Assembly: GCA_003349915.1 (NCBI GenBank)
Contig: QFXE01000016.1
Span: 1 to 63,946 of the forward strand
From: an endosymbiont of Escarpia spicata
Lineage (GTDB): Bacteria > Pseudomonadota > Gammaproteobacteria > Chromatiales > Chromatiaceae
Reading direction: 5' to 3'
DNA length: 63,946 bases
Positions within the stretch are counted from its first letter, which is position 1; the number at the start of each line of letters is the position of its first letter. The translations under genes and the position numbers were made by a program. Shown piece by piece: positions 30,232-57,741 of this stretch. Below the pieces are notes generated by a model, which ran no database searches, had not been told where the DNA came from, and was given only the letters and a program-made list of their open reading frames with translations.

Positions 30232-30355
30232 AATCAAAAATAGGTAAAAGGCTAAAGGTCAAAGGAGGCCGTGCCAGCGGGAAGGCCAGACTTTGTTGTG
30301 ACTGCTGTTGCCAGAAAAAAGTGTTTGCATTGGGCAGTTCCCGGTACACACTTGA

Positions 30356-30390
30356 TTTAACCTTTAACCTTTAACCTTTAACCTTTAACC
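30356..30390. repeat. Tandem heptamer (TTTAACC) x5
   Basis: Five exact copies of tttaacc lie between the hemY-type and radical SAM genes; the last base is shared with the radical SAM stop codon. Looser copies of the word (ggctaaaggtcaaagg) lie at about 30250, and aggttaaaggctaaag lies at the end of the trihaem cytochrome gene near 44115. Confidence 0.95.
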
Positions 30391-32434: not shown

Positions 32435-34618
32435 TTAACCGCTCCTGCGATCATTCGGATCGAGGTGGAATACACCACGTTCGGCCCACTCAGCCTTCAC
32501 TGCGTCCACTGCATCGTGATCGACCCGGTCGAGTCCTTGCCGCCGGGTCCAGCCTTCGATCTCTTTCACCAGCATGCCCTGAACCATCTCAGGTGCCTTT
32601 GCAATGCGCTCACGGGCATCTTTGTTCCAGGGCATTGTCTCCTCTACGGTTGCTGAACCTTGAGTGAAGGTCTGCATGACCTGGCCCAGGAAGTCGGCGT
32701 CGATCTGTTTTATATCGCTCTGACCGGCAATGGTTTCGGCAGCTTTTACCGTCATGTCGCGGCAGTAGCCCGCGGGAACATTGGCGAGCATTGCTTCCGC
32801 ATCACTGTTCCAGACCAGCTTGGTTTCCGGGACAGCGGGTTTTAGCTCGGGTACGGGTTGCACCAGTTCGGCAAAGGGGCAAGCACTCTTTTTCTCTGTC
32901 GCCGGGGTCGAGGGTTGAGCATCGCCTTGCATTGCCGACGCCATAGCATCCCGGGCTTTTGCCAGACCCGCCTCGGCGGTTTGCAGGGAGATCTCACTGA
33001 GTCCCTGGTCACTGGCATAGGCTTCGATGCGCTGTTTTGATGCGTCCCGCATGAAACCTTCCGGAACCCGCATCAGACGGGCCAGTGCGGCGGCCTGCCA
33101 GTGAAGGGCCGAGGCAGAGTGTTCTTTACCTTGGCCCTCGGCCCTCGGCCCTTGGTCCTCGATAAAGGGGCGGATATGGTCAGCCGCCACGATTCGGTGA
33201 CCCTCCCCCCGTGCCTTCTTCTCCGCCCGCATGCTCAGGTTGCCCCGCAGACTGAGGTCATCCACCGTGAGCAGCAACTGTTTGGCCTGGTCGTCCCAAC
33301 GCATGACCTCTTCGGTAGGGGGTTTGCGTTTAAGCTCACCATTATCGTAGGCCTCGACGATCTCGGACATTGCCTGTTCGGCGTGTCCCGGCATCAGCTG
33401 GGCGGTAGCCTCTTCAACGATGCTTTCGGTGATGACCGTATGGCCGTGCTCCTGGGCGTAGCGCAGGATCGCCATGCGTGCCATATTGCGTACGAAGGAG
33501 GGAACACGCTCCATGCGGAGCTCGGCTTCATTCGTCCATGAGGTGGTGACCTCGGCGATGCGCTCCACCGGTGGACGGTACTCCCGCTGGCTCAACAATG
33601 CGGCGCAATCCACGTCGTGGAGCAGGGCCTCGGCATTGCCGCCGATATCGAGTTCGTCGTCGGCGTGGATGCCGAGCTTGCCGATCACCAGCAGTGAGGG
33701 CTGCTCCAGTTTCAGATAACGGTTGATGACGTCATGTGGCTTGCCGTCGAGCAGTTTGATCTCCACTGGCATGCCTTGGTCGGCAGCGATGTTCCGCGCC
33801 ACTTCGAGATGGCCCTGGTAGATCTTCGCCAGACCGGAGTCGATGATCTCTTCGTGCAGTTTCTCCTGCTCCTGGAAACGGAACACCTTGCCTGCCTCCT
33901 CGGAGAGCACACCTGCGATACGATTGAAGGCAACATAGTGGTAGTAAGGATCGAAGGCGGAGATCACCTTCACCGGTACATCCCACTCCTTGCTCAGGGC
34001 GAGGGCGGTGAGCAGGCCGCCGTAGGAACGGGTGGAACCGTCCACTGCGACAACGATGGGGCCTTTTTTGATGGACTTTTGAGGATCCTTGATGACCAGC
34101 ATGTCGATGTCGCAACGTCTTGCGACGCGCTGGCAAACAGTGCCGAGCCGGCTGCCCTTGACGGCGCCCAGGCCCAGTGCACCCATTACCAGCAGGTCGT
34201 AGTCCCCGCTGTTGGTCTCACGTACCAGCTCCCGGTAGTTCTTGCCTTCCAGGGCGCGGCGTTTGAGTTCGATGTCCTGTTTTAACGTCTCCTTTTCCAC
34301 CTGGTCCATGTAAGAATCGGTGATGATAGAGAGGCCCCGTGTGATCAGGTCGTCATGCACGTCCCGCTGACGTTCCAGCTCCTCTTCTTCGCGAAACTGT
34401 TCCGGCAGACCTCCCTCCATCTGGCGGAAACGCACATCGTGCAGTTTGGCCGCATAGACGTGGGCGGCAGTCAGAGCGCTGTTCCAGATGCCAGCCAGAC
34501 TAACCGCCTCGGCAATGCTGCGGTTTGAATGGTCGGAAGAGTCCACTGCGAGGAGGATGGAGTCGTAGGTGGGCAATGTTACTGGTGCAGAGGAGCTGGC
34601 TTGAGTTTGTGCGGACAT
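32435..34618 (-). CDS. Tandem universal stress protein with about five PCP_red-type repeats
   Basis: A 727-residue protein. Two Usp domains (about residues 17-170 and 170-320) have the fold's SILLAVDSSDHS and PIVVAVDGSTRS starts and nucleotide-loop regions (VMGALGLGAVKGSRLG; VIGKLGIHA). The C-terminal half contains about five W...A...L..VP.F/M repeats similar to the PCP_red domain, separated by low-complexity linkers (about 480 and 560-600). This architecture is unusual and is shared with the radical SAM protein two bases downstream, so the two probably bind the same partner or cofactor. Not a housekeeping UspA. Confidence 0.82.
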   Translation of the reverse strand: MSAQTQASSSAPVTLPTYDSILLAVDSSDHSNRSIAEAVSLAGIWNSALTAAHVYAAKLHDVRFRQMEGGLPEQFREEEELERQRDVHDDLITRGLSIITDSYMDQVEKETLKQDIELKRRALEGKNYRELVRETNSGDYDLLVMGALGLGAVKGSRLGTVCQRVARRCDIDMLVIKDPQKSIKKGPIVVAVDGSTRSYGGLLTALALSKEWDVPVKVISAFDPYYHYVAFNRIAGVLSEEAGKVFRFQEQEKLHEEIIDSGLAKIYQGHLEVARNIAADQGMPVEIKLLDGKPHDVINRYLKLEQPSLLVIGKLGIHADDELDIGGNAEALLHDVDCAALLSQREYRPPVERIAEVTTSWTNEAELRMERVPSFVRNMARMAILRYAQEHGHTVITESIVEEATAQLMPGHAEQAMSEIVEAYDNGELKRKPPTEEVMRWDDQAKQLLLTVDDLSLRGNLSMRAEKKARGEGHRIVAADHIRPFIEDQGPRAEGQGKEHSASALHWQAAALARLMRVPEGFMRDASKQRIEAYASDQGLSEISLQTAEAGLAKARDAMASAMQGDAQPSTPATEKKSACPFAELVQPVPELKPAVPETKLVWNSDAEAMLANVPAGYCRDMTVKAAETIAGQSDIKQIDADFLGQVMQTFTQGSATVEETMPWNKDARERIAKAPEMVQGMLVKEIEGWTRRQGLDRVDHDAVDAVKAEWAERGVFHLDPNDRRSG

Positions 34619-34857: not shown

Positions 34858-35589
34858 TTACTTGAAGGTGAAGTCCGCGTTGGCGGTGCCGCCGGCGGTA
34901 ACCTCAACCTTGGATTTCAGGTCCTTCAGGGTGCCGTGCCAGGCCTTGATGGTGTATTTGCCCGGGGGTACATTGTCGATACTGAAAGTGCCGTCTTCCG
35001 CTACCTTGGCGTAGTAGGGGTTCTTGGCGACGAAGACGAAACCATGCATGAAATCATGTGCGTCACACTCAACCTTCATGGCGGATCCGCGTTTCAGCTT
35101 GACCGTTTTGGTGACGGTGTTGGGTTCGGGCTGACTTACGTTGAAGACGGTTTTCTTGGTGCGTCCGATGATCTCGTAGGTGTGGATATTATGCAGGATA
35201 GGATCCTGATTGACGGCTGCGATCTTGGTTTCGTTCTTCATTACCTGCAGGAAGGGTTTGAACTCACAACCCTTCTGATCCAGGACTGCATTGGAGATCG
35301 AGGCGTCGAAGGCCTTGCCTGTTTTGACCTTGTCCAGATAGACAACTGTGTCCATCAGTGAGCCGTTGTTGACTCGAACGTAGTCGATCTCGCGAGTGCC
35401 TGTGCCGCAGACATCGTTGTCTTTGGAAATCTTGTAGGTTTTGGGTGCTTTGTCCTTACCGGCAAAACTCACTTTGCCGGTGATGGTACCGCCGTTGCTG
35501 ACGGAGACCTCTTTGTATTTAGCGGCCTGTCCAGCGACAGGCAGGGCGCAGAGGCCGGCCAGACTGAGGGCGATGATCAACTTCTTCAT
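34858..35589 (-). CDS. Periplasmic cupredoxin-like protein with carboxypeptidase-regulatory-like fold
   Basis: A 243-residue exported protein: signal peptide at 1-22 (ends GQAA), beta-rich body, and a copper-site-like pattern H133/H136 (ILHNIHTY) and C175, H178, M181/H182 (ECDAHDFMHGF). The end (GTFSIDNVPPGKYTIKAWHG) is a carboxypeptidase-regulatory-like/transthyretin motif. Relatives are often labelled 'methylamine utilization protein'. It may carry electrons to or from the cytochromes across the divergent promoter region. Strong ribosome site AGGAGAG. Confidence 0.78.
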   Translation of the reverse strand: MKKLIIALSLAGLCALPVAGQAAKYKEVSVSNGGTITGKVSFAGKDKAPKTYKISKDNDVCGTGTREIDYVRVNNGSLMDTVVYLDKVKTGKAFDASISNAVLDQKGCEFKPFLQVMKNETKIAAVNQDPILHNIHTYEIIGRTKKTVFNVSQPEPNTVTKTVKLKRGSAMKVECDAHDFMHGFVFVAKNPYYAKVAEDGTFSIDNVPPGKYTIKAWHGTLKDLKSKVEVTAGGTANADFTFK

Positions 35590-35658: not shown

Positions 35659-38088
35659 TCAAGCCGCCTGTTGCGACCGGTCGTTGGAGGATATAAACAG
35701 CTCTTCGAGCATCTCGATGACAAACCGGCGTTCAGCGCTTGAATCGACAGTTTCCAGTTGGCTGAGCAGCCTCTCGGCGCTGCCTTGGATATCGACGGAA
35801 CGCAGCAGTTTGCCGATATTCCGGGCTTGGGCTCCGGCACCGAGAAAACCTGTGTCGATTAACTGCTCCACTATCTCGGTTTTGGACTCGCCGAGTCCCT
35901 CAAGGTTCAGTAACTGAACGATGCCTTTGGCCGCAGCCATCCGCACACTGAATTCCGTATCCTCCAGAGCACTGCTGAGTTTGCGCAGGATGGTTTTGGG
36001 GGAGACGGGTTTGACCACCATGTGGCCGGCTTTTTCGGGGTCGTCACCGCTGATGCTCAATTCAACCAAAGCGGAGATGGCTTCGGTACGCAAGGTAGTC
36101 TGTGGGTCATTCAGGACGTCAAGTAGCGGCAGCATGGCTGCCTTGTTGTGCAGCAGACCCATTGCGCGGGCACAGGCCACTCTTTGGTCTTCGTCGCCAA
36201 GACCCAACTGGGTTGTCAGGGAGCCGAAGGCGTTCATCAGGCTCCCAAGTCCGGGGTGCAGGCGCGCGGTTTCCGCGATGGCCAGTGCGGCTTCATAACG
36301 CAGTACGCCATTATCCGCGTTGAGGGCCTGGATCAGTCCTGCTGCCGAGGCATCGTCGGTATTACCGATGAGCACGCGCACACCGAGGCGGCGGACATCG
36401 TCTTCGATGCTGATCTTGCGACGGCCGCGGGTCATCCGTTCGCCGACGCGCTTGTTCTCTTCCACGACCTCAAGGAAATCCTCGATCTCCTGTTCGAACT
36501 CGACCTCGGGTTCCGGCAGTGCCTCGTGGACTCCGAAGGTAACCTCCGCATTGTCCAGGGCGATGGCATCGAGGGTGGAGACTGCAGCATTTACTTCGCC
36601 AGGCTCCACAGAGCGGCCAGGGACCTCCGGCAGCACCAGGGATTCGCTATCTGCCAACTCGGTTCCCGTCTCCGCATTTAGAACATCGGGTGTCTCGGTT
36701 ACGGTATCTTCGGCTTTGCGATCCTGCTCTTTTATCGGAGTGGGATCGAACTCCACTGCCTGACTGACCTTCTGCGGTGTTTCCTGTGGTGAGAGTTCCA
36801 GTTCGCCGGCGATGACAGCAAGCACGATGTCGAGGGGACGTTGCAATGCTTCTGTTGTCTCTTCCTCAGTTGTCGGGATGGCGTCGAGCGCCGTCAAGGC
36901 GTCGAGGGCGGCAAGGCGTACCGGTTGTTCCTTGTCGGCGATCGCCTCCTTGAGCAGATCGATGGTGTCGGCGTTGAGTATGCCGATATGGCCTATGGCA
37001 AGGGTGGCCTGCCGTCGAACCATACTGTATAGATTTTTGTTACGCACGGTGGCGATAAGCGTGTCCAGCGAAGCCGGGTCTCCATTGACACCCAAAAGGT
37101 CACAGGCAGATGCTGCAGTGTCATAGATTTTGTCCGTGAGTGAGTCCGCCACCGCAGCGAGGCTCTCTTCATCCAGGGATCGGGGCTGGATCAAACTGCT
37201 CAGTGTGGTGGCGACGATTGCACGTACCAGACTGCTGGGGTCGCTGAGTAGGGGAGTGATCTCGGCGATAATGTCCATATCGGCAGAGCTGGATTTCGTC
37301 AGGCGGTTGCAGGCTTCTATGGCCGCAGAGCGAACATCGTCTTCAGGGTCTCGCAGCAGCAGGAGCAGAGCGGGCAGATAACGATGGGCATCGATATCGG
37401 CCAGGGCTGTGGCAGCGGCCGCACGGACTTCCGGTGATTCGTCGCGCAGGGCCTGCCCCAGGGCTTTGGTGACCTCGGGGTTACCTGAATGTCCCAATGC
37501 ACGGGCGGCACGGCGGCGTTGCATGATGGAACCGTTCGCCAGCAGTTCGAGTAGCGCGGTGATGCCGCTCTCTTTGATATTGGCCAGGGCAGCGAAAATT
37601 TCCGGGTCGATGTCCTGGGATGTTTCATCCTCCATGATCTGCAGCAGGGTGCCGGTGGCATCTTCGACGCCGAAATTCCCCAAGGCCTCAACCGCAGCGA
37701 GTTGTATGTCCCACCATCTATCCCAATCGTCTTCCCATTCGATTCTATCGGGTCGATCTACCGCAACCTTTTTCAGGATGGTGACTGCGTCCTCTGAGCC
37801 GAGTTGGCCCAGGGCAGTGGTCACAGCGGTACAGACTTCACCGCTCTCTTCGTTCTCCAGGGATTTAATCAGTGCCGGTACAGCCTGCTGGTCACCGATC
37901 CTTCCCAATGCTTCGGCGGCATCCACGCAGGCATCTATGTCCTCATCCGTCAGCTGTTTGATCAGGGCCTCCACGGCACTTCTGCTGCCCAGGGTTCCCA
38001 GGGTGCGGGCGGCATAGCAGCGGTCCGCCTCATCACCTGTCTTGAGGAGGTCTGTCAGAGACTGTTCGGTCTTTTCTTTCATATTCAT
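35659..38088 (-). CDS. Large HEAT/PBS-lyase-type repeat protein
   Basis: An 809-residue cytoplasmic protein made of helical HEAT repeats, about eleven in residues 5-420 (AARTLGTLGSRSAVEALIKQL; AAEALGRIGDQQAVPALIKSL and so on) and four to five more in 580-790. An acidic, low-complexity linker (about 430-560) separates the blocks. No signal peptide. HEAT repeats of this E/Z type occur in bilin lyases and in assembly scaffolds. As first gene of the minus-strand set, opposite the bd-like operon, it probably aids assembly of the cytochrome complex; this is inference. Start is ATG 38088, with an in-frame ATG two codons on. Confidence 0.85.
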   Translation of the reverse strand: MNMKEKTEQSLTDLLKTGDEADRCYAARTLGTLGSRSAVEALIKQLTDEDIDACVDAAEALGRIGDQQAVPALIKSLENEESGEVCTAVTTALGQLGSEDAVTILKKVAVDRPDRIEWEDDWDRWWDIQLAAVEALGNFGVEDATGTLLQIMEDETSQDIDPEIFAALANIKESGITALLELLANGSIMQRRRAARALGHSGNPEVTKALGQALRDESPEVRAAAATALADIDAHRYLPALLLLLRDPEDDVRSAAIEACNRLTKSSSADMDIIAEITPLLSDPSSLVRAIVATTLSSLIQPRSLDEESLAAVADSLTDKIYDTAASACDLLGVNGDPASLDTLIATVRNKNLYSMVRRQATLAIGHIGILNADTIDLLKEAIADKEQPVRLAALDALTALDAIPTTEEETTEALQRPLDIVLAVIAGELELSPQETPQKVSQAVEFDPTPIKEQDRKAEDTVTETPDVLNAETGTELADSESLVLPEVPGRSVEPGEVNAAVSTLDAIALDNAEVTFGVHEALPEPEVEFEQEIEDFLEVVEENKRVGERMTRGRRKISIEDDVRRLGVRVLIGNTDDASAAGLIQALNADNGVLRYEAALAIAETARLHPGLGSLMNAFGSLTTQLGLGDEDQRVACARAMGLLHNKAAMLPLLDVLNDPQTTLRTEAISALVELSISGDDPEKAGHMVVKPVSPKTILRKLSSALEDTEFSVRMAAAKGIVQLLNLEGLGESKTEIVEQLIDTGFLGAGAQARNIGKLLRSVDIQGSAERLLSQLETVDSSAERRFVIEMLEELFISSNDRSQQAA

Positions 38089-38626: not shown

Positions 38627-38794
38627 ATGTCCGATCCAGAGAAAATCAACGAATCTGAAAGAAAGGAGGGCACAGATGTGTCCGTGCACTCCAATTGGGG
38701 GCCGAAGCTGTTTGTTGGGGTGCTGATCGGTATCCTGCTGTTTTTCTACTGGTTGCTGATCTACTCGGGCGGCGTCACAGTGCATCACGGTTAA
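38627..38794 (+). CDS. 55-residue single-span membrane protein
   Basis: MSDPEKINESERKEGTDV start, then one helix (about residues 27-48, FVGVLIGILLFFYWLLIYSGG) and a short HH tail. The frame is open earlier, but the ATG at 38627 falls downstream of the sigma54 start and fits. First gene of the bd-like operon; likely a small structural subunit. Confidence 0.72.
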   Translation: MSDPEKINESERKEGTDVSVHSNWGPKLFVGVLIGILLFFYWLLIYSGGVTVHHG

Positions 38795-38805
38795 AGGGTG
38801 GAAAA

Positions 38806-38958
38806 ATGAGTGAAGAAAATAAGATTGGTGGTGCGGCACTGCTGGTCATCTGGATTGCTGCGCTGGCCATCTCCCTGGTGGCATTCTACGGCCTGGATCA
38901 TCTGATTATGAACATGCAGGGGCTGCCCCTGAATGCTGACCTGACCCCGGCGGGTTGA
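38806..38958 (+). CDS. 50-residue single-span membrane protein
   Basis: MSEENKIGGAALLVIWIA start with one helix at about 9-28 and a short tail ending TPAG. It starts 12 bases after the preceding small gene and ends 24 bases before the bd-like gene, so the three are clearly one unit. The longer upstream frame overlaps its neighbour and is rejected. Confidence 0.72.
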   Translation: MSEENKIGGAALLVIWIAALAISLVAFYGLDHLIMNMQGLPLNADLTPAG

Positions 38959-38981
38959 ACGGGTAGGGGAGAGAGAAAAAG

Positions 38982-40889
38982 ATGAGGTCGAACAGACAAC
39001 AATCGATACGTCGAAACGGTTTTTCAAACGGTCTTGGTTGGCTGCTGTCCCTGTTGGCAGTTCTGCTTGTATTTGGCGTAACCCCTGTTTTTGCGGATAT
39101 GGGGATGGGTGGTGCCGAACAGCGCATCGCACCGATCGGCCGGGTCCATATTGAAGGTCAGGATTTTGTTCCCGTAGCGGATAGTGTGGCCAGTGGGGCG
39201 GAAGAGCCGGAACAAATCGCGGCACCCCGGACGAGTCGCAAGGACTACCCGAATATCGGCGTCAGCAGCCGGGCAGTGGTCTGGATCCTGGCCCAGTTAC
39301 ACCTCTTTTTCGGCGCCTTGGTGTTGGCGGTGCCTCTTTTTGTCCTGGTGATCGAACTGGTGGGGGTGATGACTGGCGATGAGCGCTACGACAGCATGGC
39401 CCATGAGTTTATGAAGATCAGCCTTACCGGCTTCTCCATCACCGCCATCTTCGGTGGCTCTCTGGCGTTGGCGCTGTTCCTGCTCTATCCCGATTTCATG
39501 GGTTACATGATGCACGTCTTCGGTGCCCAGTGGTTGGTCTACGCAGGGCTGTTTTTCCTCGAGAGCTTCTTCCTCTACACCTACTATTATGGCTGGAACG
39601 CCATGCGTTACGGCAACCTGAAGTGGGTGCACCTGAGTCTTGGCCTGCTGCTCAATGGCGCGGGCATGACCATCATGGTGATCTCCAACTCCTGGGCCAC
39701 CTTTATGATGGCACCTTCAGGGGTCAATGAGGTCGGCGTGGTGGTAGGCAATATTTGGGAGGTGATGAAGGGACCGCTGTGGAACCCGATCAACCTGCAT
39801 CGGTTTATTGCCAACATCGGTTTCGGTGGTGCCGTTGTCGGGGCCTATGCCGCATACAAGTTCCTGAGCACAAAGGATATGGAGAAGCGGGCCCACTACG
39901 ACTGGATGGGCTACACCTCCAACTTCATCGCTATCCTTGCCTTCCTGCCGTTGCCTTTCGCTGGATACTGGCTGATGGCGGAGATCTACGCCTACTCCCA
40001 GCAGATGGGCATCACTGCCATGGGTGGTATCCTGGCCTGGCTCTTCATCGTGCAGGCGGTGCTGATCGGTACCATCCTGCTGGCGGGCAACTACTACCTT
40101 TGGGCGGGCATGTCTCGGACCGAAGGTTCCAAACGCTACAAGCCTTTCATTGGCTTTATCGCTTTCGTACTGGTGGTTTGTTTCCTGACTTGGGTTACCC
40201 CCCACACCCTGATACTGTCTGCGTCGGAGATCGCGCAGCTGGGAGGCAGCCACCACCATATCCTCGGGCCCCTGGGCATCATGCCGGCGAAGAATATCGC
40301 TGTTAACCTGATGTTGATAGTGACCTTTCTCTCGTTCCAGCTCTATCGCCGTTCCGACAAGGTGGCGACCGTCTCCTGGGCGCCTATCGGCAATGCGCTG
40401 ATGGTGGCGATCTATGTGGTGGCGATCGTCAACATCATCTTCCTCGGTGTCTATTTCGGCTACTTCAGCAATACGGTCTACAAGGTGGGTTCGTCGGTGG
40501 CCCAGGTGAGTTCGACCCTGGTGGTGATTATTGCGGGTATCGTCATTGACAGCCTGATGTTCAAAAATGCCAAGACCCTGCCTTCACACTGGGGCAGGAT
40601 TCCAGATCGAGCCCAGTACGCCCTGTTTGCCCTGCCGATTGCCTTTACCTGGCTGATGGGACTGATGGGTTATGTGCGCTCTTCGGTGAAGACCCATTGG
40701 CATGTCTATACGGTGATGAAGGACAACTCGCCGGACAATTTTATTCCCACCATTGGTTATGCCGGCAACATGATCACCATTGTGACCGTACTGTTCCTGT
40801 TGTTTGTGCTGTTTATGTTCTGGGTTGCCAGCCTTAGTGGAACCAAACAAGCCAAACCGGAAACTGTGACTGAAGGAGGGGTGGCATGA
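38982..40889 (+). CDS. Cytochrome bd ubiquinol oxidase subunit I-like membrane protein
   Basis: A 635-residue protein with an N-terminal segment ending PVFADM (membrane anchor or signal), an approximately 60-residue periplasmic stretch, and about 12-14 helices. Residues 100-300 align by eye with CydA: H107 (LHLFFGAL) at the haem b595 histidine, E194 (FFLES) at the second conserved glutamate, and H273 (INLHRF) at the b558 histidine. The first CydA glutamate (IEG) is absent here (VYAG), and no canonical Q-loop GRQPW is seen. So it is a bd-like haem b protein, perhaps not a true oxygen reductase; related 'bd-like' proteins occur in Nitrospira. It overlaps the next gene by four bases. Confidence 0.8.
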   Translation: MRSNRQQSIRRNGFSNGLGWLLSLLAVLLVFGVTPVFADMGMGGAEQRIAPIGRVHIEGQDFVPVADSVASGAEEPEQIAAPRTSRKDYPNIGVSSRAVVWILAQLHLFFGALVLAVPLFVLVIELVGVMTGDERYDSMAHEFMKISLTGFSITAIFGGSLALALFLLYPDFMGYMMHVFGAQWLVYAGLFFLESFFLYTYYYGWNAMRYGNLKWVHLSLGLLLNGAGMTIMVISNSWATFMMAPSGVNEVGVVVGNIWEVMKGPLWNPINLHRFIANIGFGGAVVGAYAAYKFLSTKDMEKRAHYDWMGYTSNFIAILAFLPLPFAGYWLMAEIYAYSQQMGITAMGGILAWLFIVQAVLIGTILLAGNYYLWAGMSRTEGSKRYKPFIGFIAFVLVVCFLTWVTPHTLILSASEIAQLGGSHHHILGPLGIMPAKNIAVNLMLIVTFLSFQLYRRSDKVATVSWAPIGNALMVAIYVVAIVNIIFLGVYFGYFSNTVYKVGSSVAQVSSTLVVIIAGIVIDSLMFKNAKTLPSHWGRIPDRAQYALFALPIAFTWLMGLMGYVRSSVKTHWHVYTVMKDNSPDNFIPTIGYAGNMITIVTVLFLLFVLFMFWVASLSGTKQAKPETVTEGGVA

Positions 40890-41713
40890 CCGTCTTCTTC
40901 AAAACCATTGGATTCAGTATCGGTCTGGCCCTGGTCTTCACCCTGGTGACCCAGCTGCTGCCACAGGTGGAGGGCGAAGCGCCGGTGGAAACGAAGGTCG
41001 ATCTGGCTTCTCTGACCATGGACGACTTTGTTGCCATGGGTGAGGATCTGTTCATGAACAAGGGTACCTGCACCCTCTGTCACAAGCCGCCGCCTATCGG
41101 GCGTGCTCCTGACATCCAGAGCATGGATATGGTGAGTACCTCGTCCGAACGTCTCGCCGATGAGCGTTATCAGGGTGAGTCGAAAGACGCGGCGGATTAT
41201 ATCCTTGAATCGATGATTGATCCGAGTAAGTTCGTAGTCGCCGGTTGGGGTAAAAAGGGCTCCAACGACACCGTCTCGCCAATGCCCGCCGTCGACAAAG
41301 CGCCGATCCAGCTTTCAGCGATGGAGATGGATGCGATCATCGCCTATCTGCAGGCGAAGGATGGCAATGAGGTGACCATATCCCTGCCGTCACCGGAGGC
41401 GGCTGCGGAAGTTGTCGCTGCAGCACCGGCAGCTGGTGGAGTTGCGCCAGCACCAGCGGCCACTGCTGAGGAGGCACTGGGTAAATATGCCTGCAGCGCC
41501 TGTCATGCGATGGACTCTGAGGATCCCCTGGTGGGTCCGGGGCTGGCAACCGTGGGGGCGCGTCTGAGTGAGACGGAGATACGTCAGAGCATTGTTGATC
41601 CTGCTGCAGTAATAACGGAGGGTTTTCCTCCGGCGATGCCAGCAGACTTTGCGGAGAAGATGACGGTTAGAGAGCTGGAGATGCTCGTGCAGCATCTGGC
41701 GGAGAAAAAATAA
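40886..41713 (+). CDS. Membrane-anchored dihaem cytochrome c
   Basis: A 275-residue protein with an N-terminal helix (residues 5-27), and two c-type haem sites C62-TL-C65-H66 and C203-SA-C206-H207. An Ala/Pro/Glu-rich linker (about 165-195) joins the haem domains, the second having the M-containing tail of small class I cytochromes (PPAMPADF). ATG overlaps the bd-like gene (ATGA) and its stop overlaps the next start (TAATG), so the three are coupled. Periplasmic electron carrier for the complex. Confidence 0.85.
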   Translation: MTVFFKTIGFSIGLALVFTLVTQLLPQVEGEAPVETKVDLASLTMDDFVAMGEDLFMNKGTCTLCHKPPPIGRAPDIQSMDMVSTSSERLADERYQGESKDAADYILESMIDPSKFVVAGWGKKGSNDTVSPMPAVDKAPIQLSAMEMDAIIAYLQAKDGNEVTISLPSPEAAAEVVAAAPAAGGVAPAPAATAEEALGKYACSACHAMDSEDPLVGPGLATVGARLSETEIRQSIVDPAAVITEGFPPAMPADFAEKMTVRELEMLVQHLAEKK

Positions 41714-44121
41714 TGAAGAGCTTTAGGATTCCGGCTTTCCTGCAGGCGCTGCTGATCATTGCAGCAGCCTATCTGGTGTTCAAGTTCGGTTTTCCGCCGC
41801 TGCTGTCACAGACGCTGATGATCCAGTACATGATTATCACCATCATTGGTGTGCTGCTCTATTTCTCTTTCGACGACGAGCGCTGGGCAGAGTTCCAGGC
41901 ACCGGTTCTTGCCACCCTGCGCAACGATAATCTGTCGGTGGTTCGCTGGTTCTTCCTTATCGCCGTTCCTCTGGTGGTGGGTTATACCGTCTATGGCATG
42001 GTGAAGCCGAGCAATGATGCTCCGGTGGAGTTGCGTCAGGTACATCCCGCTCCCCCCGCCTCGGTCAAGGTTTTTGGTAAAAGTTTCGATCTTGCGACAC
42101 TGGAAAACCCCATTCGAGAGGATATTCTTAAGACCCTCGCCAGCGACAAGGAGGCGGGCTGGGACAAATACCAGACGGCGGTAAGTGCCGGGCGCGACGT
42201 CTACTATCAGAACTGCTTCTATTGTCACGGCGATCTGCTGGACGGTCAGGGTCACTATGGATCCGGATTCAATCCACAGCCGATCAACTTCCAGGATCCG
42301 ACCGTCATCCCCCAGTTGCAGGAGGCCTTCCTCTTTTGGCGCATCACTACGGGTGGTCCCGGTCTGCCGAAGGAGGGTACCCCCTGGAACTCAGCCATGC
42401 CGGTGTGGCATGAGATGTTGAGTGAGCAGGATGTGTGGAACGTCATCACCTTCCTCTTCGACTATAACGGCCAGGTTCCGCGGATCTGGGACCCGGAGAT
42501 CTCCCGGGTTGTGACCGGCATGAAGGACGAGGTGCTGGCCAAACGCAAGGAGATTAAGGGCAAAGACCTTTACAAGTTCCGTTGCGAGGTCTGCCACGGA
42601 GAGCAGGGCGCCGGAGACGGCGTGGCTGCGGAGTTGATGTATCCGAAACCACGGGATTTCACCCTGGCTCTATTTAAATACAAGACCTCTCCAGGCACTC
42701 TGTTGCCGCTGGATGATGATCTGTTCAACACCATCAAAAACGGCCTGACAGGAACAGGCATGCCGGGTTGGGCATCGCTGATGAGTGATGAGCAGATCCG
42801 CAGCCTGATCCCGGTAATCAAGGGTTTCGATATCACCGCCGCCTGGGCGCCGGATGATGCGGAGGATGAGTCCTTCGATGACGATGGTCACTATATCAAG
42901 ACCGATTTTCGCCAGACTGCAGAAGTTGAACCACTGGGCGGCCAGATCCCCTACTCAGAGGAGTCGGTAGCCAAGGGGCGCGACGCTTTTATCAAATCCT
43001 GCAAGGAGTGCCACGGCGAAGCGGGCAGGGGCAATATCGTCTCCGGCAAGAAACTGGAGGACGATTGGGGTTTCCGCATCTGGCCGCGGGATCTGACCAA
43101 ACCCTGGACCTGGCGCGCTACTCAGTCCACTGAGTCTGCTGAGAAGGAGCGGGATGCCACCGTCAAGGCGATCTATACCCGTCTCTCCATCGGTATTCCC
43201 GGTACGCCGATGCCGGCTCACCGCGCAGTGGAGGAGGGCAACAAGGATCCAGTCAGTTTGGAGGATCGCTGGCACATCTCCAATTTCGTCTACAGTCTGC
43301 GTGATACAACGGTGCAGCCCAAAGATGGTGCGGTGGTAACCGGCACCAAGGTAAGTGGCGGAGTGCCGACCTCGCTGGATGATGAGCGTTGGAATGGCGC
43401 AGACGCGGTTACCTTGAGTCTGGTGCCTAACATCATCAAGGAAGAGCGCCTGTTCATACCGCTAAATGATGCAGTGACCGTACGCGCCATCTATAACGAG
43501 AAGGAGATTGCCTTTCTGCTTGAAGTGGATGATCGTACCGAAAGCCGTCCCGGCATCGAATACTTCACAGATCTGCAGGACGAGAACAAGGAGATGCACG
43601 CCGATGCGGTGGCGATCCAGTTCCCCATGGAGGCTGCTTATATGTCGGTGCCGATGGTGGAGAAGCCCCTCTATCGACATGGCGACAAGCGTCACCACAC
43701 TACCATCTGGTACTGGAATGCGGGCAGTGTCGAGCCTAAACGGGATGCCAGTGCTGTGCTGATGGAAGGTGTCGGCCCGAACAAACGCCCCAAGCTGCGT
43801 GAGGCGGACGGTACCTTTAGCGCGGCCGGTGAGTGGAAAGATGGTAAGTGGCGTGTCATCATGACGCGTCCGCGCAGTGGCGGTGCGATTTGGGATATCG
43901 ATTTTGTTGAGGGTCAGTTCATGCCCATCTCCTTCGCCAACTGGGACGGCAGTAACGGCGAGGTGGGATCCAAACACACCCTAAGCACCTGGTACTGGCT
44001 CTTCCTGCCGCCGGAGTTCGACTATCAGCGGGTCTATGGACTCCCGGCAGGCATTGCCCTGTTGGTTTTCCTTGCTGGCCTGATGTTGGTTAGGTCGCAA
44101 CAGAAAAAGGTGAAAGGTTAA
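41713..44121 (+). CDS. Trihaem cytochrome c fused to an ethylbenzene-dehydrogenase-type haem b domain
   Basis: An 802-residue protein. Three N-terminal membrane helices (about 10-30, 37-52, 78-98) lead to three c-type haem sites, C168-FY-C171-H172, C291-EV-C294-H295 and C430-KE-C433-H434. Residues about 550-770 resemble the haem b-binding gamma subunit of ethylbenzene/DMS dehydrogenase-type molybdoenzymes (AVAIQFPME, then WKDGKWRVIMTRPR), and one helix near 780 anchors the C terminus. A fusion of these two parts suggests an electron conduit across the membrane surface; the function is not established. Confidence 0.83.
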   Translation: MKSFRIPAFLQALLIIAAAYLVFKFGFPPLLSQTLMIQYMIITIIGVLLYFSFDDERWAEFQAPVLATLRNDNLSVVRWFFLIAVPLVVGYTVYGMVKPSNDAPVELRQVHPAPPASVKVFGKSFDLATLENPIREDILKTLASDKEAGWDKYQTAVSAGRDVYYQNCFYCHGDLLDGQGHYGSGFNPQPINFQDPTVIPQLQEAFLFWRITTGGPGLPKEGTPWNSAMPVWHEMLSEQDVWNVITFLFDYNGQVPRIWDPEISRVVTGMKDEVLAKRKEIKGKDLYKFRCEVCHGEQGAGDGVAAELMYPKPRDFTLALFKYKTSPGTLLPLDDDLFNTIKNGLTGTGMPGWASLMSDEQIRSLIPVIKGFDITAAWAPDDAEDESFDDDGHYIKTDFRQTAEVEPLGGQIPYSEESVAKGRDAFIKSCKECHGEAGRGNIVSGKKLEDDWGFRIWPRDLTKPWTWRATQSTESAEKERDATVKAIYTRLSIGIPGTPMPAHRAVEEGNKDPVSLEDRWHISNFVYSLRDTTVQPKDGAVVTGTKVSGGVPTSLDDERWNGADAVTLSLVPNIIKEERLFIPLNDAVTVRAIYNEKEIAFLLEVDDRTESRPGIEYFTDLQDENKEMHADAVAIQFPMEAAYMSVPMVEKPLYRHGDKRHHTTIWYWNAGSVEPKRDASAVLMEGVGPNKRPKLREADGTFSAAGEWKDGKWRVIMTRPRSGGAIWDIDFVEGQFMPISFANWDGSNGEVGSKHTLSTWYWLFLPPEFDYQRVYGLPAGIALLVFLAGLMLVRSQQKKVKG

Positions 44122-44180
44122 AGGCTAAAGTGGCGATCCCATTTCTCCTCATCTTTATGCATTCGCAGGAGTGATTTTTT

Positions 44181-44780
44181 ATGATTCAACGGATGGTCTC
44201 CATCTTTCTCTTTCTCATGTTTCTTCCCATTGTGACTCAGGCCGGGGGAGAGGCGCCGCGTGAGGATGAGGTTCTGGATCAGAGCGGGGCTCCGGCTGGC
44301 GGTGATTTCACCCTCAATTCTGCTGCTGGGCCGGTTTCAACCAGTGATCTCAGAGGCAAGGTCATACTGCTCTATTTCGGTTACACCAAGTGCCCGGATG
44401 TCTGTCCCACGTCACTCTCCCTGGCAACCCAGGCCCTGAACGAATTGAGTGGAGAAGAGTTGAAATCGCTGACATCGATCTTTGTCAGTGTCGATCCCCA
44501 ACGCGATACGGTGGAGCAACTGAAAGAGTACGTGGAGTACTTCCATGAGAGCTTTCTCGGGGTAACCGGCAGTGAGGAGAAGGTGGCCGAGGTGGCTAAG
44601 ATGTACGGGGCTCAGTATTACCAGGTGGAACTGGAAGGCTCGGCTTTTGGATATTCGGTGAATCACTCCGCCGCAACCTACCTGATAGCGCCGGATGGAC
44701 AATTACGTTTTATCTTTCCCCACGAGACGCCGCCGCAAGTGATGCTTGAAGGAATACGCTATCTGATGGCCGGCAACTGA
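44181..44780 (+). CDS. SCO1/SenC family copper chaperone
   Basis: A 199-residue exported protein: signal peptide (1-22), thioredoxin-like fold with the copper ligands C71, C75 (CPDVCP) and H162 (VNHSAAT), and the VDPQRDT motif. SCO proteins deliver copper or keep cysteines reduced for haem-copper oxidases; here no haem-copper oxidase is nearby, so it may serve the cupredoxin-like protein or c-type haem assembly. A terminator follows. Confidence 0.9.
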   Translation: MIQRMVSIFLFLMFLPIVTQAGGEAPREDEVLDQSGAPAGGDFTLNSAAGPVSTSDLRGKVILLYFGYTKCPDVCPTSLSLATQALNELSGEELKSLTSIFVSVDPQRDTVEQLKEYVEYFHESFLGVTGSEEKVAEVAKMYGAQYYQVELEGSAFGYSVNHSAATYLIAPDGQLRFIFPHETPPQVMLEGIRYLMAGN

Positions 44781-45325: not shown

Positions 45326-46432
45326 ATGGGTGTACGAGTCAAAACCGGACATACTCTTCTGGCGGCAGCGCTGGGGCTGGGTATGGCTTTCGGTGCGCAA
45401 GCCGGCAAGTATCCCGACATCACGTCTTTGCCTGATCTGAAGATCAATGCGGCCAAGGCTGAGTTGGGAAAGCGACTTTTTTTCGATCGCCGTATCTCGG
45501 GTGATGCAGGCATAGCCTGCTCAGATTGTCACAAACCTGAAAACGGCTATGCGCATCCCGATGCGCTGTCCCCGGGTTATCCCGGTAATGGACATTTTCG
45601 CAACAGCCCCAGCGTGATCAACGCTGTACACAAAAAAGTCTGGATGCATGACGGTCGTTTGGGTACAAACCTCAATGACGTAACCCGTGAAATGCTCACG
45701 GAAGATTACATCATGAATATGGACATGCGGGTCATGCAGGAGCGTGCGAAGCAGGATCCAAAATATGTTCAGATGTTCAAGGATGCCGGATATGGCGAAC
45801 CATCCAACGGTTCGATACGTAAGGCAATCCCGGAATACCTGAAGACCCTGACCTCCGTGAATGCCCCCATCGACACCGGCAAGATGTCTGCCTCCGCCAA
45901 GCGTGGTCAGAAGCTCTTCGAAGGTAAGGCTGGATGCATCCAGTGCCACAACGGTCCGCTAGCCACCGATGGCAAGGCATACAATACTGGTGTGCCGGAG
46001 AACTTCGATATTTTCCTCGACCCCATGAACCATCATGCCTTCATCGCCTTCGCCATGTTTCAGGGTATCGAAGACTACATGAACCTAAAGCGCGATCCTG
46101 GTTATTACAATATCACCATGGATGCTGCTGATACGGGCAGGTTCGTGACCCCGAGCCTGCGTGAACTGAAGTACTCCGCACCCTACATGCACAACGGCAT
46201 GATCAAGAGTCTCTATGATGTGGTTGGCTTCTACAACAGGGGTGGCGGCAAAGACAGCCGCAAGGACTCCCGTCTCAAGCCTTTGAAGTTGGGTAAGCAG
46301 GATATCAAAGACCTGGTTGCCTTCCTCGAGTCTATGTCGGGTGATCCTCTGACCAGCGGTCAGCACGTCTGGAAAGATCCCTATCCTGCTGAGTATCCGG
46401 TTATCGAAAACTGGACTCAGGTCAAGAACTAA
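45326..46432 (+). CDS. idrP1: Dihaem cytochrome c peroxidase-like protein (IdrP1-like)
   Basis: A 368-residue exported protein of the MauG/CcpA family. Signal peptide 1-26 (ends GAQA). Haem sites C65-SD-C68-H69 and C204-IQ-C207-H208. The segments KRLFFDRRISGDAGIACSDC and SLRELKYSAPYMHNG are family hallmarks. A strong TGGAGGAAA ribosome site precedes the ATG. First gene of idrP1-idrP2-idrB-idrA. In iodate reducers (Pseudomonas sp. SCT, Denitromonas) two such peroxidases accompany IdrAB and are thought to remove a toxic reduced iodine intermediate or peroxide. Confidence 0.85.
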   Translation: MGVRVKTGHTLLAAALGLGMAFGAQAGKYPDITSLPDLKINAAKAELGKRLFFDRRISGDAGIACSDCHKPENGYAHPDALSPGYPGNGHFRNSPSVINAVHKKVWMHDGRLGTNLNDVTREMLTEDYIMNMDMRVMQERAKQDPKYVQMFKDAGYGEPSNGSIRKAIPEYLKTLTSVNAPIDTGKMSASAKRGQKLFEGKAGCIQCHNGPLATDGKAYNTGVPENFDIFLDPMNHHAFIAFAMFQGIEDYMNLKRDPGYYNITMDAADTGRFVTPSLRELKYSAPYMHNGMIKSLYDVVGFYNRGGGKDSRKDSRLKPLKLGKQDIKDLVAFLESMSGDPLTSGQHVWKDPYPAEYPVIENWTQVKN

Positions 46433-46449: not shown

Positions 46450-47688
46450 ATGAGTAATGTAATACAGACTCCGACCCTGTTGGCCGCTGCCATCACGACG
46501 GCACTGCTGGCAGGTTGTGCTGGCCAGGCGACTTCGGAATCCACTGCTGCACCTGCAGCTGAAAAGTCGATGGCTGCAGCACCTATGGCGATGGCCGGTC
46601 CTGCGCCTCTGGCGCCTCTGGGTGAACCCCCGATCCCGCCGGATAATCTGCAGAGTCCTGCAAAAATCGAACTGGGAAAAATCCTCTTTTTTGATCCCCG
46701 TTTGGGTGGTGATGCTTCCACTGGTTGCTCCACCTGCCATGAGCCGGATCAGGGCTGGGCTTGGGCAGAGGACTTCTCCCGTGGTTATCCCGGTACCGTC
46801 CACTGGCGTAACAGTCAGACCATTATCAATAGTGCCTACTTTCCCCGCCAATTCTGGGCAGGTTCCGCCTCTTCCAATGAGTCGCAGGCAAGGGGTGCAG
46901 CCAGAGGTGGTGTAGCCGGCAACGGCGAGGCCGACATCATGGAAGCGCGTCTCAGGGTGATTCCTGAATATGTGGAACGTTTCCGCGAGGCATTCGGCAC
47001 CCAGTGGCCTATCGTTCGGGACGCATGGCGAGCAATCGCTTCCTTTGAACGTACTCTGGTACAGCGTGATACTCCCCTGGACAAGTATCTCCTGGGTGAC
47101 AAGAGCGCGCTGGATGCAGATCAACTCAAGGGTAAGGAAATTTTTGAAGGTAAAGGTGGTTGTATCCAGTGCCATAATGGCGCTATCACCTCTGACCAGG
47201 ATTTCCATAATATTGGAATCCCGCCGAACAAGCGTTGGGAGGAGGACGGACTGGCACAGATCACCTTCCGTTTCGAGCAGTATGCGAAGGGACAGACCCA
47301 GGAGGGCTACCGCAAAGCCAAGTCCGATTGGGGCTTCTACTACCGTTCCAAGAATGCATGGGATAAGGGAAAGTTCCGTACCGCCCCTCTGCGTTACCTG
47401 AAATACACCGCACCCTATATGCACAATGGTGTCTTCTATACCCTGGAAGAGGTGGTTGATTTCTATGACCGCGGTGGTTTCGACGAAGATGGCCGTACCA
47501 CGCTGTTCCCAGAGAACAAGAGTTCGCTTATCAAGCCACTTGGTCTGACTGACGATGAAAAGGGCGCCCTCATAGCGTTCCTCGAATCCATGTCCGGCGA
47601 AGAGATGTTGATGGATAAACCTGCGATGCCCGAATACGCACCGCTGTTTACCCTGGCAGAGCTTGAAGCGGCACAGGAGGCAAAATAA
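46450..47688 (+). CDS. idrP2: Dihaem cytochrome c peroxidase-like lipoprotein (IdrP2-like)
   Basis: A 412-residue MauG-family paralogue of the preceding protein with a lipobox (LLAGC, lipidated C23), an Ala/Pro-rich linker, and haem sites C93-ST-C96-H97 and C238-IQ-C241-H242. It shares the RTAPLRYLKYTAPYMHNG segment with its neighbour. Its last base overlaps idrB's ATG (TAATG). Lipidation would keep it at a periplasmic membrane face. Roles as for idrP1. Confidence 0.85.
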   Translation: MSNVIQTPTLLAAAITTALLAGCAGQATSESTAAPAAEKSMAAAPMAMAGPAPLAPLGEPPIPPDNLQSPAKIELGKILFFDPRLGGDASTGCSTCHEPDQGWAWAEDFSRGYPGTVHWRNSQTIINSAYFPRQFWAGSASSNESQARGAARGGVAGNGEADIMEARLRVIPEYVERFREAFGTQWPIVRDAWRAIASFERTLVQRDTPLDKYLLGDKSALDADQLKGKEIFEGKGGCIQCHNGAITSDQDFHNIGIPPNKRWEEDGLAQITFRFEQYAKGQTQEGYRKAKSDWGFYYRSKNAWDKGKFRTAPLRYLKYTAPYMHNGVFYTLEEVVDFYDRGGFDEDGRTTLFPENKSSLIKPLGLTDDEKGALIAFLESMSGEEMLMDKPAMPEYAPLFTLAELEAAQEAK

Positions 47689-48257
47689 TGTCTGATATCA
47701 AGAAAAAAGACGAGACTGCAGCAGATCACGGTAAGTGTATGCTCAATCGTCGTCAGTTCCTGATGTACAGTGGGTCCGCGGCTGCCGCGGCCAGCACTGT
47801 TTCAATCAGTCTGTTCCCAGGCCAAGCCGCTGCAAAGGCCCGCGTCGTGGGTTATCCCCGTAAGAAGATTGGCCAGCTCAGTGCCCTTAAGGACAATCAG
47901 CCGGTGAACTTCACCTATCCTGATGACGGTGCTATTAACTTGCTGGTCAAGATGGGCGGAGTGAAGGCCGGTGGCGGTGTTGGTGATCAGCGTGACGTGG
48001 TGGCCTTCAGCTACCTCTGCACCCACCAGGGCGGCAACATGATCGGCAAGTACCAGGCGGTGGGTAACCATCGTGTACTGGGCCAGTGCCCGCTGCATCT
48101 CTCGACCTACGATCTGACGCGTCACGGCATCATCGTTTCCGGACAGGCATACCAGAGCGTGCCTCAGGTCTTGCTGGAAGTTGACGGCGACGATATCTAT
48201 GCCGTCGGTATGATGGGCCTGATCTTTGGCCGTAACGAAAACCTGCTGGAATCCTGA
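47688..48257 (+). CDS. idrB: Rieske iron-sulfur subunit (IdrB/AioB type)
   Basis: A 189-residue protein with a Tat signal (R21-R22-QF in LNRRQFLMYSG, then a hydrophobic stretch to GQAAAKA) and a Rieske cluster motif C111-TH113 ... C134-PLH137. It is the arsenite-oxidase/iodate-reductase small subunit. The Tat signal would export the large subunit too, which has none. Overlaps idrP2 and is 15 bases before idrA. Confidence 0.9.
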   Translation: MSDIKKKDETAADHGKCMLNRRQFLMYSGSAAAAASTVSISLFPGQAAAKARVVGYPRKKIGQLSALKDNQPVNFTYPDDGAINLLVKMGGVKAGGGVGDQRDVVAFSYLCTHQGGNMIGKYQAVGNHRVLGQCPLHLSTYDLTRHGIIVSGQAYQSVPQVLLEVDGDDIYAVGMMGLIFGRNENLLES

Positions 48258-48272
48258 GGAGGAGAATAGACA

Positions 48273-50973
48273 ATGGCAACTAAATATTACCTCCCTGAGG
48301 ATCATGCACCGCTACCACCGAAAAATGCGGACGTGAAGACCACCTGCTGCGACTACTGCATCGTCGCCTGTGGATACAAGGTCTATCGTTGGCCGGTAGG
48401 TACTCCGGATGGCGGTCCGAAGGCATCTGAGAATGCCTTCAATACCGATTTTCCGTCCGGTCCTCTACAGGCTTGGGTGGCACCTACTCAGCACAACGTG
48501 GTGATGCATGAAGGGCGTCCTCACAATGTGGTTATCATCCCGGATAAGGATGCCAAGGTCGTCAATATCGGCGGTGATTCCTCCATCCGTGGTGGCTGTA
48601 TTGCGCAGAAGTGCTACAACCCCAACAAACCGACCAACGACCGTCTGACGTCACCTCTGGTGCGGATCAACGGAACGCTGCAGCCGGTGAGCTGGGACTT
48701 CGCCCTCGATATTGCGGCCAATGTGGGTAACCATGTTCTCAAAGAGCATGGTGCCAACGCATACAGTGTGAAGACCTTCTCTTATCAGTTCTTCGAGAAC
48801 ACCTATGCGGTGAAGAAGTTTGCCCGCCGTTCCATCAAGACAGCGGCTTTCACCTTCCATGACACGCCTTCCGATGTGACCTCCACTCCCGGTTTCCGGG
48901 ATGCGGGTTTTGACAACTTCGGTCCGGCCTATAAGGACTGGGGGGATGCAGAGGTCCTGGTGATCTGCGGTACCGACCCGTATGAAACCAAGACCATGAT
49001 CTTCACCCAGTTCATCAAGCCTGCTATCGACCGTGGTCAAAAGACCATCTGGTTGAACGTGCGTGAGACTGCTGGTTTGGCATATGCCAAGAGCAAGGGT
49101 GACGATCAGACTATCCATCTGCAGATCAATCCCGGTACCGATACCCCGGTACTCGGCGCCATCTCCCGTATCATTCTGGAGAATGGTTGGGAAGATAAGG
49201 ATTGGATCAAGCACTGGGTCAACGACAAATGGGGCTCCAGCTCCGGTTTCGGCCAGGGCACACGTAACACCCCATGGCAGTGGCGCACCACCTGGGGCAA
49301 GTTCCAGACCAATGGTGTCTACGGCAAGAAGGGTTACAAGGCCTGGGTCATGTCCCGCAAGGAGCATGAGCCAGAGGTCGCAGCCAAGATCGCCGGCGTC
49401 GATGTAAACGATCTCTATAAAGCGGCCAAGTGGTTGACTGGTGGTGGCGGTGATCGTCCCAAGGCATCCTTCGGTATCGAGAAGGGCTTCTACTGGTCGA
49501 ACAACACCGGCAACACCAACGCCATCTCTTCTCTGGCAACTATCTGCGGTGCAGGCGGTCGTCCAGGTCAGATGGTTGGTCGTTTCGGTGGTCATCAGCG
49601 TGGTGGCGCAGGCGGTGGTAGCTATCCCCGTAACCGCTCACCTGAGAAGGTGCCGGGCCGTCGCCGCCGCTCCCTTGATACGGATCGTTGGCTCTATTCA
49701 GGTCACACCCGTATGGCGCACGTCATCGGTACCACCTGGATTCAGGCGATGGCCGGTGCAAACGGTCTGCACGCCAAGTTCGAGGAGTTGACGACCAACA
49801 ACCCGAACCAGGTCCTCCTGGGACAAGGATGAGATCATCGAGACCCTCAAGGCGCGTGCCGATTCCGGTGGTACTGTTGTGATCAATCAGGATATCTACC
49901 TGCGCGATCCCATCGGTGCACGTTTTGCGGATATCGTCTTCCCTGCGTCGACCTGGGGTGAAGAGGATTTTGCCCGCGCCAACGGTGAGCGTCGCATCCG
50001 TCTCTATCAGAAGTTCTACGATGCACCCGGTGACGCCAAGCCTGACTGGTGGATCATTTCACGGCTGGCCCAGAAGATGGGCTTCAAGGGTTATGACTGG
50101 AAAGATTCCAACCAGGTTTGCGAAGAGTCTTCCCGCTCCAGTCGTGGTAACCGCAAGGCATATCACATGATAAAGATCGCTGCCCATAAAGAGGGTAAGA
50201 CTCTGCATCAAAAGCTGGCGGAACTCGGTACCGAGGGTATCCAGGGTCCGACCTTCTACAATTACGATACCGGCGAATTACTCGGTACGGTGCGCCTGCA
50301 CAATACTCAGTGTACGCAGGAGAAGTTGGTGAAGGAGGGACGCACCAAGGGTGCCAACATGATCAACAAGAAGGGATCTCACTTCAATTCCCAGACTGGT
50401 CGTGTAAACATCCAGAAACACCCCTGGAGTCTATATGCTGACTACTGGGAGTGGATGAGCCCGAAAGAAGACGAGCTGTGGCATACCAACGGTCGTATCA
50501 ACGAGATCTGGCAGTCCGGCTTTGATGATATCGAACGTCGTGCCTACATCACCCAGCGTTGGCCGGAGAATTTCACCGAGATCCATCCGGATGATGCCGC
50601 TTCCCGCGGTATCGAGTCGGGTGATCGGGTGATGCTCTTCTCCAACAGGGTGCCGGTGCATAAGAACACCATCAAGGGTGTTCACGGCAAAGACTTCCAG
50701 TTCTCTGAACTGATGAAGAACGGCCATATCGCACTGGAGAAAGGTGCTACCACCGCTATCGCTATCGTAACCCCAGCGGTGAAGGAGGGGACTTTGTACT
50801 CCTACTTCATCACTGAAAAGCAGGCATCCAATGCACTGCAGGGCCGCGTGGTGGATAACATCAGTGGTAACTACAACTATAAGCTCGGTGTGTGCAAGAT
50901 TAAGAATCATGGGCCGTCTGAGTATAAGAAAGAGTTCCGCAGCATGTCTTTCGCACCGCGAAACATCGTCTGA
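48273..50973 (+). CDS. idrA: Molybdopterin oxidoreductase, iodate-reductase/AioA type, frameshifted
   Basis: The two frames 48273-49832 (519 residues) and 49879-50973 (364) together make a full-length large subunit of about 899 residues. Cysteines C26, C29 and C33 (CDYCIVACGYKVYRW) bind a 3Fe-4S cluster as in AioA. Later segments (SQFFENTYAVKKF; WGEEDFARANGERRIRLY; KDSNQVCEES; GTEGIQGP) match the AioA/IdrA family. The two frames differ by one base: around 49810-49820 removing one c from ggtcctcctggg gives ...NPNQVLWDKDEIIETL.... No homopolymer run explains this, so it may be a sequencing error or a real mutation. No export signal; hitchhikes on IdrB. IdrA versus AioA assignment rests on the P1/P2 neighbours. 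Confidence 0.85.
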
Positions 50974-57732: not shown

Positions 57733-57741
57733 GGTGCTGAG

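Follow-up and report, generated by a model that had tools for sequence, protein, structure and literature searches.

The window, a stretch of 63,946 nucleotides (contig QFXE01000016.1) from an endosymbiont of Escarpia spicata, contains a compact module of five genes (38627..44121, + strand) that encode a membrane protein related to the cytochrome bd subunit CydA (hereafter bd-like), a dihaem and a trihaem cytochrome c and two small peptides. The module is conserved as a unit in other genomes, and it is linked to an idrP2-P1-B-A cluster on its downstream side and to an operon of tetrapyrrole-type genes on its upstream side, neither of which figured in the original prediction. Our tentatively favoured reading, which we give slightly less than an even chance, is that the complex moves electrons from quinone to the periplasm, probably by way of a tailored haem, and supplies periplasmic molybdoenzymes of high potential, namely Idr in this genome and NXR in nitrite oxidisers.

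The module starts with two single-span peptides of 55 residues (38627..38794, +; a lone hydrophobic segment at 28-46) and 52 residues (38800..38958, +; hydrophobic segment at 11-29), neither with a Pfam match. They are followed by the bd-like protein of 635 residues (38982..40889, +; Cyt_bd_oxida_I, E 7e-21, residues 96-350), a dihaem cytochrome c of 275 residues (40886..41713, +; Pfam cytochrome c, two CXXCH motifs) and an 802-residue trihaem cytochrome c fused to an EbdC/NxrC-type haem b domain of the alt_NxrC type (41713..44121, +; three CXXCH motifs, four hydrophobic spans), in which the Pfam scan found cytochrome stretches besides an EB_dh match over the cut-off (2e-17). A gene for a SCO1/SenC family protein comes next (44181..44780, +; Pfam SCO1-SenC 3e-42, CPDVC motif). 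The distances between neighbouring genes, from that of the 55-residue peptide through the SCO gene, are 5, 23, -4, -1 and 59 bases, in agreement with the original prediction of five genes overlapping or lying at most 25 bases apart and a SCO gene 59 bases on; its two single-span peptides, dihaem cytochrome and trihaem/EbdC-type fusion were likewise borne out. The genome has one CydA-family match, the bd-like protein itself. No CydB partner was found among ten window proteins scanned with Pfam (no wider search of the genome for CydB was made), and among the five module genes Pfam recognised neither cytochrome b and Rieske subunits of the bc1 kind nor any other gene of the alternative complex III type.

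Conservation of the block elsewhere, which the original prediction had named as a check, was assessed by a contig scan for bd-like relatives, in which at least 585 stretches matched, at least 558 of them encoding a relative; the best 80 loci were analysed. Among these, the dihaem gene comes after the bd-like gene in 77/77 loci with room and the trihaem/EbdC-type gene is present next in 61/62. The small peptides are less constant, with upstream relatives of the 55-residue and 52-residue peptides in 44/74 and 51/74 loci with room, respectively. A SCO gene stands beside the module in only 8/47 loci, which makes a role as core copper chaperone of the complex weakly founded; we did not retain SCO in the core and regard it as accessory in this lineage. 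The closest named relative of the bd-like protein among the best 80 loci is from an endosymbiont of Lamellibrachia (98%), which suggests a host bacterium related to the symbionts of vestimentiferans, and other close rows, judging by their names, belong to Sedimenticolaceae. In the best-matching segment, relatives from Nitrospinota, Nitrospirae and deltaproteobacteria show 57-61% identity. The 802-residue protein is split into parts of about 254 and 510 residues in Nitrospinota, deltaproteobacterial and some alphaproteobacterial loci and in the G229 locus. The bd-like protein had no match among plasmid sequences. Longer bd-like copies of about 700-750 residues, mostly with the same conserved residues (L162, L171, L164, L165, L068, L088, L091 and L092), occur in some alphaproteobacterial, gammaproteobacterial, Nitrospinota and Nitrospirae genomes, some with cytochromes of their own.

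The module is of a known kind, because its genes match those of modules in Nitrospira and Nitrospina and its dihaem protein is a relative of Kustd1711 of Kuenenia. A bd-like protein with cytochrome c and alt_NxrC has been reported from Nitrospira, Nitrospina and anammox bacteria (PMC3578206, PMC6606698), and the clustering of bd-like, c-type cytochrome and EB_dh-type haem b genes in the window repeats this arrangement. In Nitrospira, bd-like_3 is clustered with two c cytochromes and a two-haem alt_NxrC, which the split form described above resembles, and anammox bacteria carry the bd-like module as well (PMC6606698); in Nitrospina, the Q-loop and the quinol residues are lost and three helices are added (PMC3578206, 2013). 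The nearest solved relative of the dihaem protein (PDB 7zs0, E 3.5e-16) is Kustd1711, which is encoded in the nxr cluster of Kuenenia and has potentials near +350 mV (PMC11791136). The suggestion that the complex looked undescribed had therefore to be given up, since the module, the lost Q-loop and the lost quinol residues are in print (PMC3578206, PMC6606698); what bd-like proteins do in nitrite oxidisers and anammox bacteria was described as enigmatic in 2013 (PMC3578206) and still as undetermined in 2019 (PMC6606698).

Residue conservation was evaluated in an alignment of 76 bd-like sequences, in all of which H107, E194 and H273, as well as H217 and M434, are invariant. By alignment, H107 and E194 correspond to H19 (in TM1) and E107 of E. 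coli CydA, so that this canonical feature is present. Of the three residues originally proposed as haem ligand equivalents, the third is less secure: H273 pairs with the haem b558 histidine in one alignment, but two others shift that histidine by one helical turn. As predicted, the protein lacks the first glutamate of CydA (E99 in E. coli), in whose place stands an invariant tyrosine (Y187). None of the 76 sequences has an Asp or Glu at 543-569, in the helix expected to supply the carboxylate that binds the second active-site haem (E445 in E. coli); the E445 position aligns to L561 or S567, depending on which of two alignments is used. Because these two alignments of the C-terminal half disagree and a third covers the N-terminal part only, we assigned no ligand there. 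The Q-loop had also been predicted to be missing, and indeed the positions of K252 and E257, the quinol residues of the E. coli Q-loop, both pair with glycine (in a region where the alignment is weak), and the region is largely helical in the structure model with a low-confidence stretch at 339-347. The CydA-like half is thus kept and extra membrane helices stand in place of the Q-loop, as in the nitrite-oxidiser module, and both the d-haem site and the Q-loop have lost canonical features. A normal cytochrome bd or bc1 complex, which the original prediction had already set aside, was rejected on Pfam content (no cytochrome b or Rieske subunit in the module), the missing carboxylates and the lost Q-loop.

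The main rival, which we consider rather unlikely, is an OR-N oxygen reductase that oxidises cytochrome c, the OR-N proteins being reportedly a family within the cytochrome bd superfamily (Murali et al. 2021); here the periplasmic c haems would feed an oxygen site in the CydA-like subunit. The invariance of H107, E194, H217 and M434 would suit such a site, a tailored haem would parallel haem d, and many host names among the loci appear to belong to lineages with aerobic members. In addition, bd-like proteins of Nitrospinota and Nitrospirales have been filed as putative OR-N oxygen reductases (PMC10839748, PMC12342949). The tyrosine at the E99 position and the lack of any carboxylate at 543-569 speak against an oxygen site. 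With one CydA-family match in the genome, neither a second bd-like subunit, as in the proposed CydAA', nor a canonical CydA was found, and the module is present in anammox bacteria too (PMC6606698).

Downstream of the module lie two dihaem peroxidases of the idrP2 type (45326..46432, +; CCP_MauG 2e-31, two CXXCH) and the idrP1 type (46450..47688, +; CCP_MauG 5e-38, two CXXCH), directly before an IdrB/AioB-type Rieske subunit with a Tat signal (idrB type, 47688..48257, +) and an idrA-type molybdopterin subunit (48273..50973, +; Rieske_3 and Molybdopterin in Pfam). The order P2-P1-B-A is that of iodate reducers (PMC10989891) and is the same on an Azonexus plasmid. The idrA frame is broken near 49.8 kb into pieces of 519 (48273-49832) and 364 residues (49879-50973) in different frames; in the four genus mates having the gene it is open (901 residues). 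IdrB exceeds the NCBIfam cut-off for the arsenite oxidase small subunit (113.7 vs 95.65, 47688-48257), so that automatic annotation may label the cluster arsenite oxidase. We rejected that reading on the peroxidases, the gene order and the tree: an idrP-type dihaem peroxidase is absent from the stretches around 5/5 AioA loci, and a 100/100 branch separates the 5 AioA rows from all 23 Idr rows (the genus mate G005 stood for the window in this tree, which was built without a functionally tested IdrA sequence).

In 25/47 loci with at least 9.4 kb downstream, the module is followed on its own strand by two or all three of P2, P1 and B. With a threshold of 49% identity to the 519-residue piece, 38 out of 210 genomes of the order have IdrA; bd-like is in 36 and both are in 32 (Fisher, 2e-27); by genus, the numbers are 16, 16 and 15. 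By comparison, bd-like is present in 0/16 genomes of the order with only weak AioA-like matches. The family of L086 (named Roseovarius) gave IdrA in 12, bd-like in 7 and both in 6 of 248 genomes. In a tree of 49 labelled loci, idr linkage falls within one proteobacterial clade only, needing 9 changes. G229 looks like a separate case of linkage. Here IdrA clusters with plasmid types from Azonexus and Thiothrix, the bd-like protein has 45% identity, and a split module lies together with idrP2-P1-B-A and regulators. We found no report of a link between bd-like and idr in the accessible parts of the literature; Murali et al. 2021 or Lucker et al. 2010 may touch on it.

Several further arrangements were observed at these loci. 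Contig C111 of G114 carries IdrA copies at 56684 and 69170, about 12 kb apart, with bd-like about 8 kb from the second; the 1.7-Mb megaplasmid of Vibrio sp. THAF190c (L125) has relatives of idrP2-P1-B-A, at a place where the plasmid table lists no genes, and no bd-like match. At the alphaproteobacterial locus L053 (15234-19595), a module without idr is followed by a 504-residue protein with no Pfam match and a 926-residue protein that has a cytochrome c domain close to the C-terminus, possibly another client enzyme.

The operon upstream is transcribed divergently from the module. Reading away from it, the genes (all on the - strand) encode a HEAT-repeat protein with bilin-lyase-like repeats that recurs with the module (35659..38088), a carboxypeptidase-regulatory-like protein of 243 residues (34858..35589), a protein with a USP domain and PCP_red repeats (32435..34618), a radical SAM/SPASM protein (NirJ2/AhbD-like) with PCP_red repeats and CX3CX2C at 18 (30390..32432), and a HemY-type protoporphyrinogen oxidase (28813..30237; TIGR00562, 239.8 bits vs a cut-off of 97.85). 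A histidine kinase and an NtrC-type response regulator, perhaps of the same island (24489..28510, -), have relatives near other modules: the regulator is 52-59% identical to those near L053, L067 and L091, and the kinase is related to those of L053 and L067. The name of the PCP_red family (PF08369) derives from the 57 kD subunit of protochlorophyllide reductase.

Of the 210 genomes of the order, 38 encode the USP/PCP_red protein; it is present in 35/36 of those with bd-like, including 4/4 with bd-like and no IdrA. Both genes are on one contig in 28 of these 35 genomes (starts at most 7.3 kb apart in 27) and on different contigs in 7. Among 293 genomes across the class, bd-like was found in 12, PCP_red in 17 and both in 10, G629 and G729 being the two with bd-like alone; the PCP_red proteins of the 7 genomes without bd-like comprise two of 84 and 96 residues and five of 539-645 residues that, by length and score, may be BchB. 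The 77 Nitrospinota genomes have bd-like of any subclade in 70, PCP_red in 73 (all 70 bd-like genomes among them) and neither in 4 (Fisher, 3e-05). In two of three alphaproteobacterial genomes examined, the operon comes directly after idrA in the same gene order, and the three blocks are thus arranged otherwise than in the window; in the third (G299), the HEAT gene and the homologue of the 243-residue protein follow idrA and PCP_red genes precede idr. For the idr-linked locus L086 (in G231), the flanks of the locus itself are too short to show the operon. Since the tie between operon and module survives rearrangement, a functional link is favoured over mere neighbourhood. G001, of the same genus as the window, has the USP/PCP_red gene although bd-like and IdrA both lack a match there, a pattern that would fit loss of the module. 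No report connecting PCP_red or tetrapyrrole genes with nitrite oxidisers was found in what was accessible of the literature; again, Murali et al. 2021 or Lucker et al. 2010 may touch on it.

The operon might instead be merely an extra route to haem b, or serve the c cytochromes, with ordinary haem b in the bd-like complex. We regard this as unlikely, even though the HemY-type oxidase scores over its cut-off and the radical SAM part resembles the haem b synthase AhbD, because PCP_red tracks bd-like and not idr alone (among the genomes with IdrA and without bd-like it occurs in only 1/6, there with a stop inside the match) and because PF08369 is found in just 1/14 named control genomes, that of the phototroph Synechococcus.

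Under the favoured reading of a quinone-to-periplasm complex, the CydA-like subunit would contain low-spin haem b together with one or more additional haems, probably including a tailored tetrapyrrole that the PCP_red, radical SAM, protoporphyrinogen oxidase and HEAT proteins would make or insert. Electrons from the quinone pool would enter this subunit elsewhere than at the Q-loop and then pass to the periplasmic c and EbdC-type haems, ending at a high-potential periplasmic enzyme: IdrAB and the peroxidases here, and NXR, possibly reversed, in nitrite oxidisers. That quinol electrons may reach periplasmic acceptors had been proposed originally and is favoured by the adjoining idr genes. The complex would then be the membrane partner said to be lacking from a published idr cluster.

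A number of points weigh against this reading. The Q-loop residues are gone and no quinone site was identified in the bd-like module; fold comparison placed CydA first and ActF/ActC-type chains second, and the latter match may merely echo CydA's own resemblance to them. No idr gene is in reach at 22/47 loci with room, and no shared partner enzyme was found at these 22, where 10 neighbour proteins from 6 loci were scanned and included no molybdoenzyme, so that the notion of one gate for several molybdoenzymes rests on idr and the published NXR clusters. Conversely, 6 genomes of the order (five from genus g81, 96-100% complete, and one 40% complete) and 6/12 IdrA genomes of the Roseovarius family have IdrA and no bd-like, and idr occurs without the module on Vibrio and Azonexus plasmid stretches (a comparison that covered plasmid sequence alone); neither system therefore needs the other. 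In the window itself, idrA is broken and the bd-like module intact. As for the operon, the NirJ2 and AhbD scores of the radical SAM protein do not reach the respective cut-offs (306 and 298 of 500), which makes the tailoring reaction a guess; bd-like lacks a PCP_red match in G010 (69% complete), G629 and G729, PCP_red lacks bd-like in G001, G029 and G226, and the near-universal PCP_red of Nitrospinota (73/77) means that this sample discriminates little. Shared inheritance of a linked island is possible and inflates the genome counts.

A reverse run, in which a high-potential periplasmic donor would reduce quinone at the expense of the proton motive force for carbon fixation, has been proposed for Nitrospira and Nitrospina, where the module occurs with NXR genes (PMC6606698, PMC3578206), and is quite improbable here, as IdrAB is described as a reductase (PMC8692401) and a sulfur-oxidising relative, going by lineage, would have low-potential donors.

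A bolder form of the favoured reading, that such bd-like complexes carry a haem type new to science, made by the dedicated PCP_red, radical SAM and protoporphyrinogen oxidase set, and serve generally as the membrane gate through which electrons reach high-potential periplasmic molybdoenzymes such as NXR (nitrite oxidisers, anammox) and iodate reductase (marine proteobacteria), is conceivable, with the balance on the side of doubt. The observations tie the same module to a molybdoenzyme other than NXR and add tetrapyrrole-type genes that accompany it in several classes and phyla. They also point to a candidate partner on the quinol side, which iodate respiration has been missing, and the function of bd-like becomes a spectroscopic and genetic question answerable in culturable marine proteobacteria. 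Elsewhere in the window, proteins with DUF1800 (56386-57732) and DUF1501 (58239-58910) lie near each other (within 56386-58910).

Compared with known systems, the module is closest to bd-like_3/alt_NxrC_2 of Nitrospira moscoviensis and the bd-like genes in the NXR clusters of Nitrospina gracilis and Kuenenia, with which it shares the CydA-like N-terminal half without Q-loop, c-type cytochromes, an EbdC/NxrC-type haem b protein that also carries c haems, and a dihaem protein related to Kustd1711. It differs from them in being gammaproteobacterial, in the fusion of cytochrome and EbdC as one 802-residue trihaem protein, in adjoining idr rather than NXR, and in the added small peptides and SCO. 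With the OR-N family (PMC10839748, PMC12342949) it has in common a CydA homologue without quinol site that is linked to c cytochromes; it differs by the single CydA-family gene of its genome. Alternative complex III is similar in the suggested role of quinol:cytochrome c oxidoreductase and in the fold match of its ActF/ActC chains, second to CydA, and dissimilar in that no other gene of its type was recognised among the five. The idr genes resemble the published idrABP1P2 iodate reductase clusters (PMC8692401, PMC11445184, PMC10989891) in the order P2-P1-B-A, the Tat signal on the Rieske subunit and the dihaem peroxidases, and are unlike them in being joined to a bd-like module and a putative tailoring operon.

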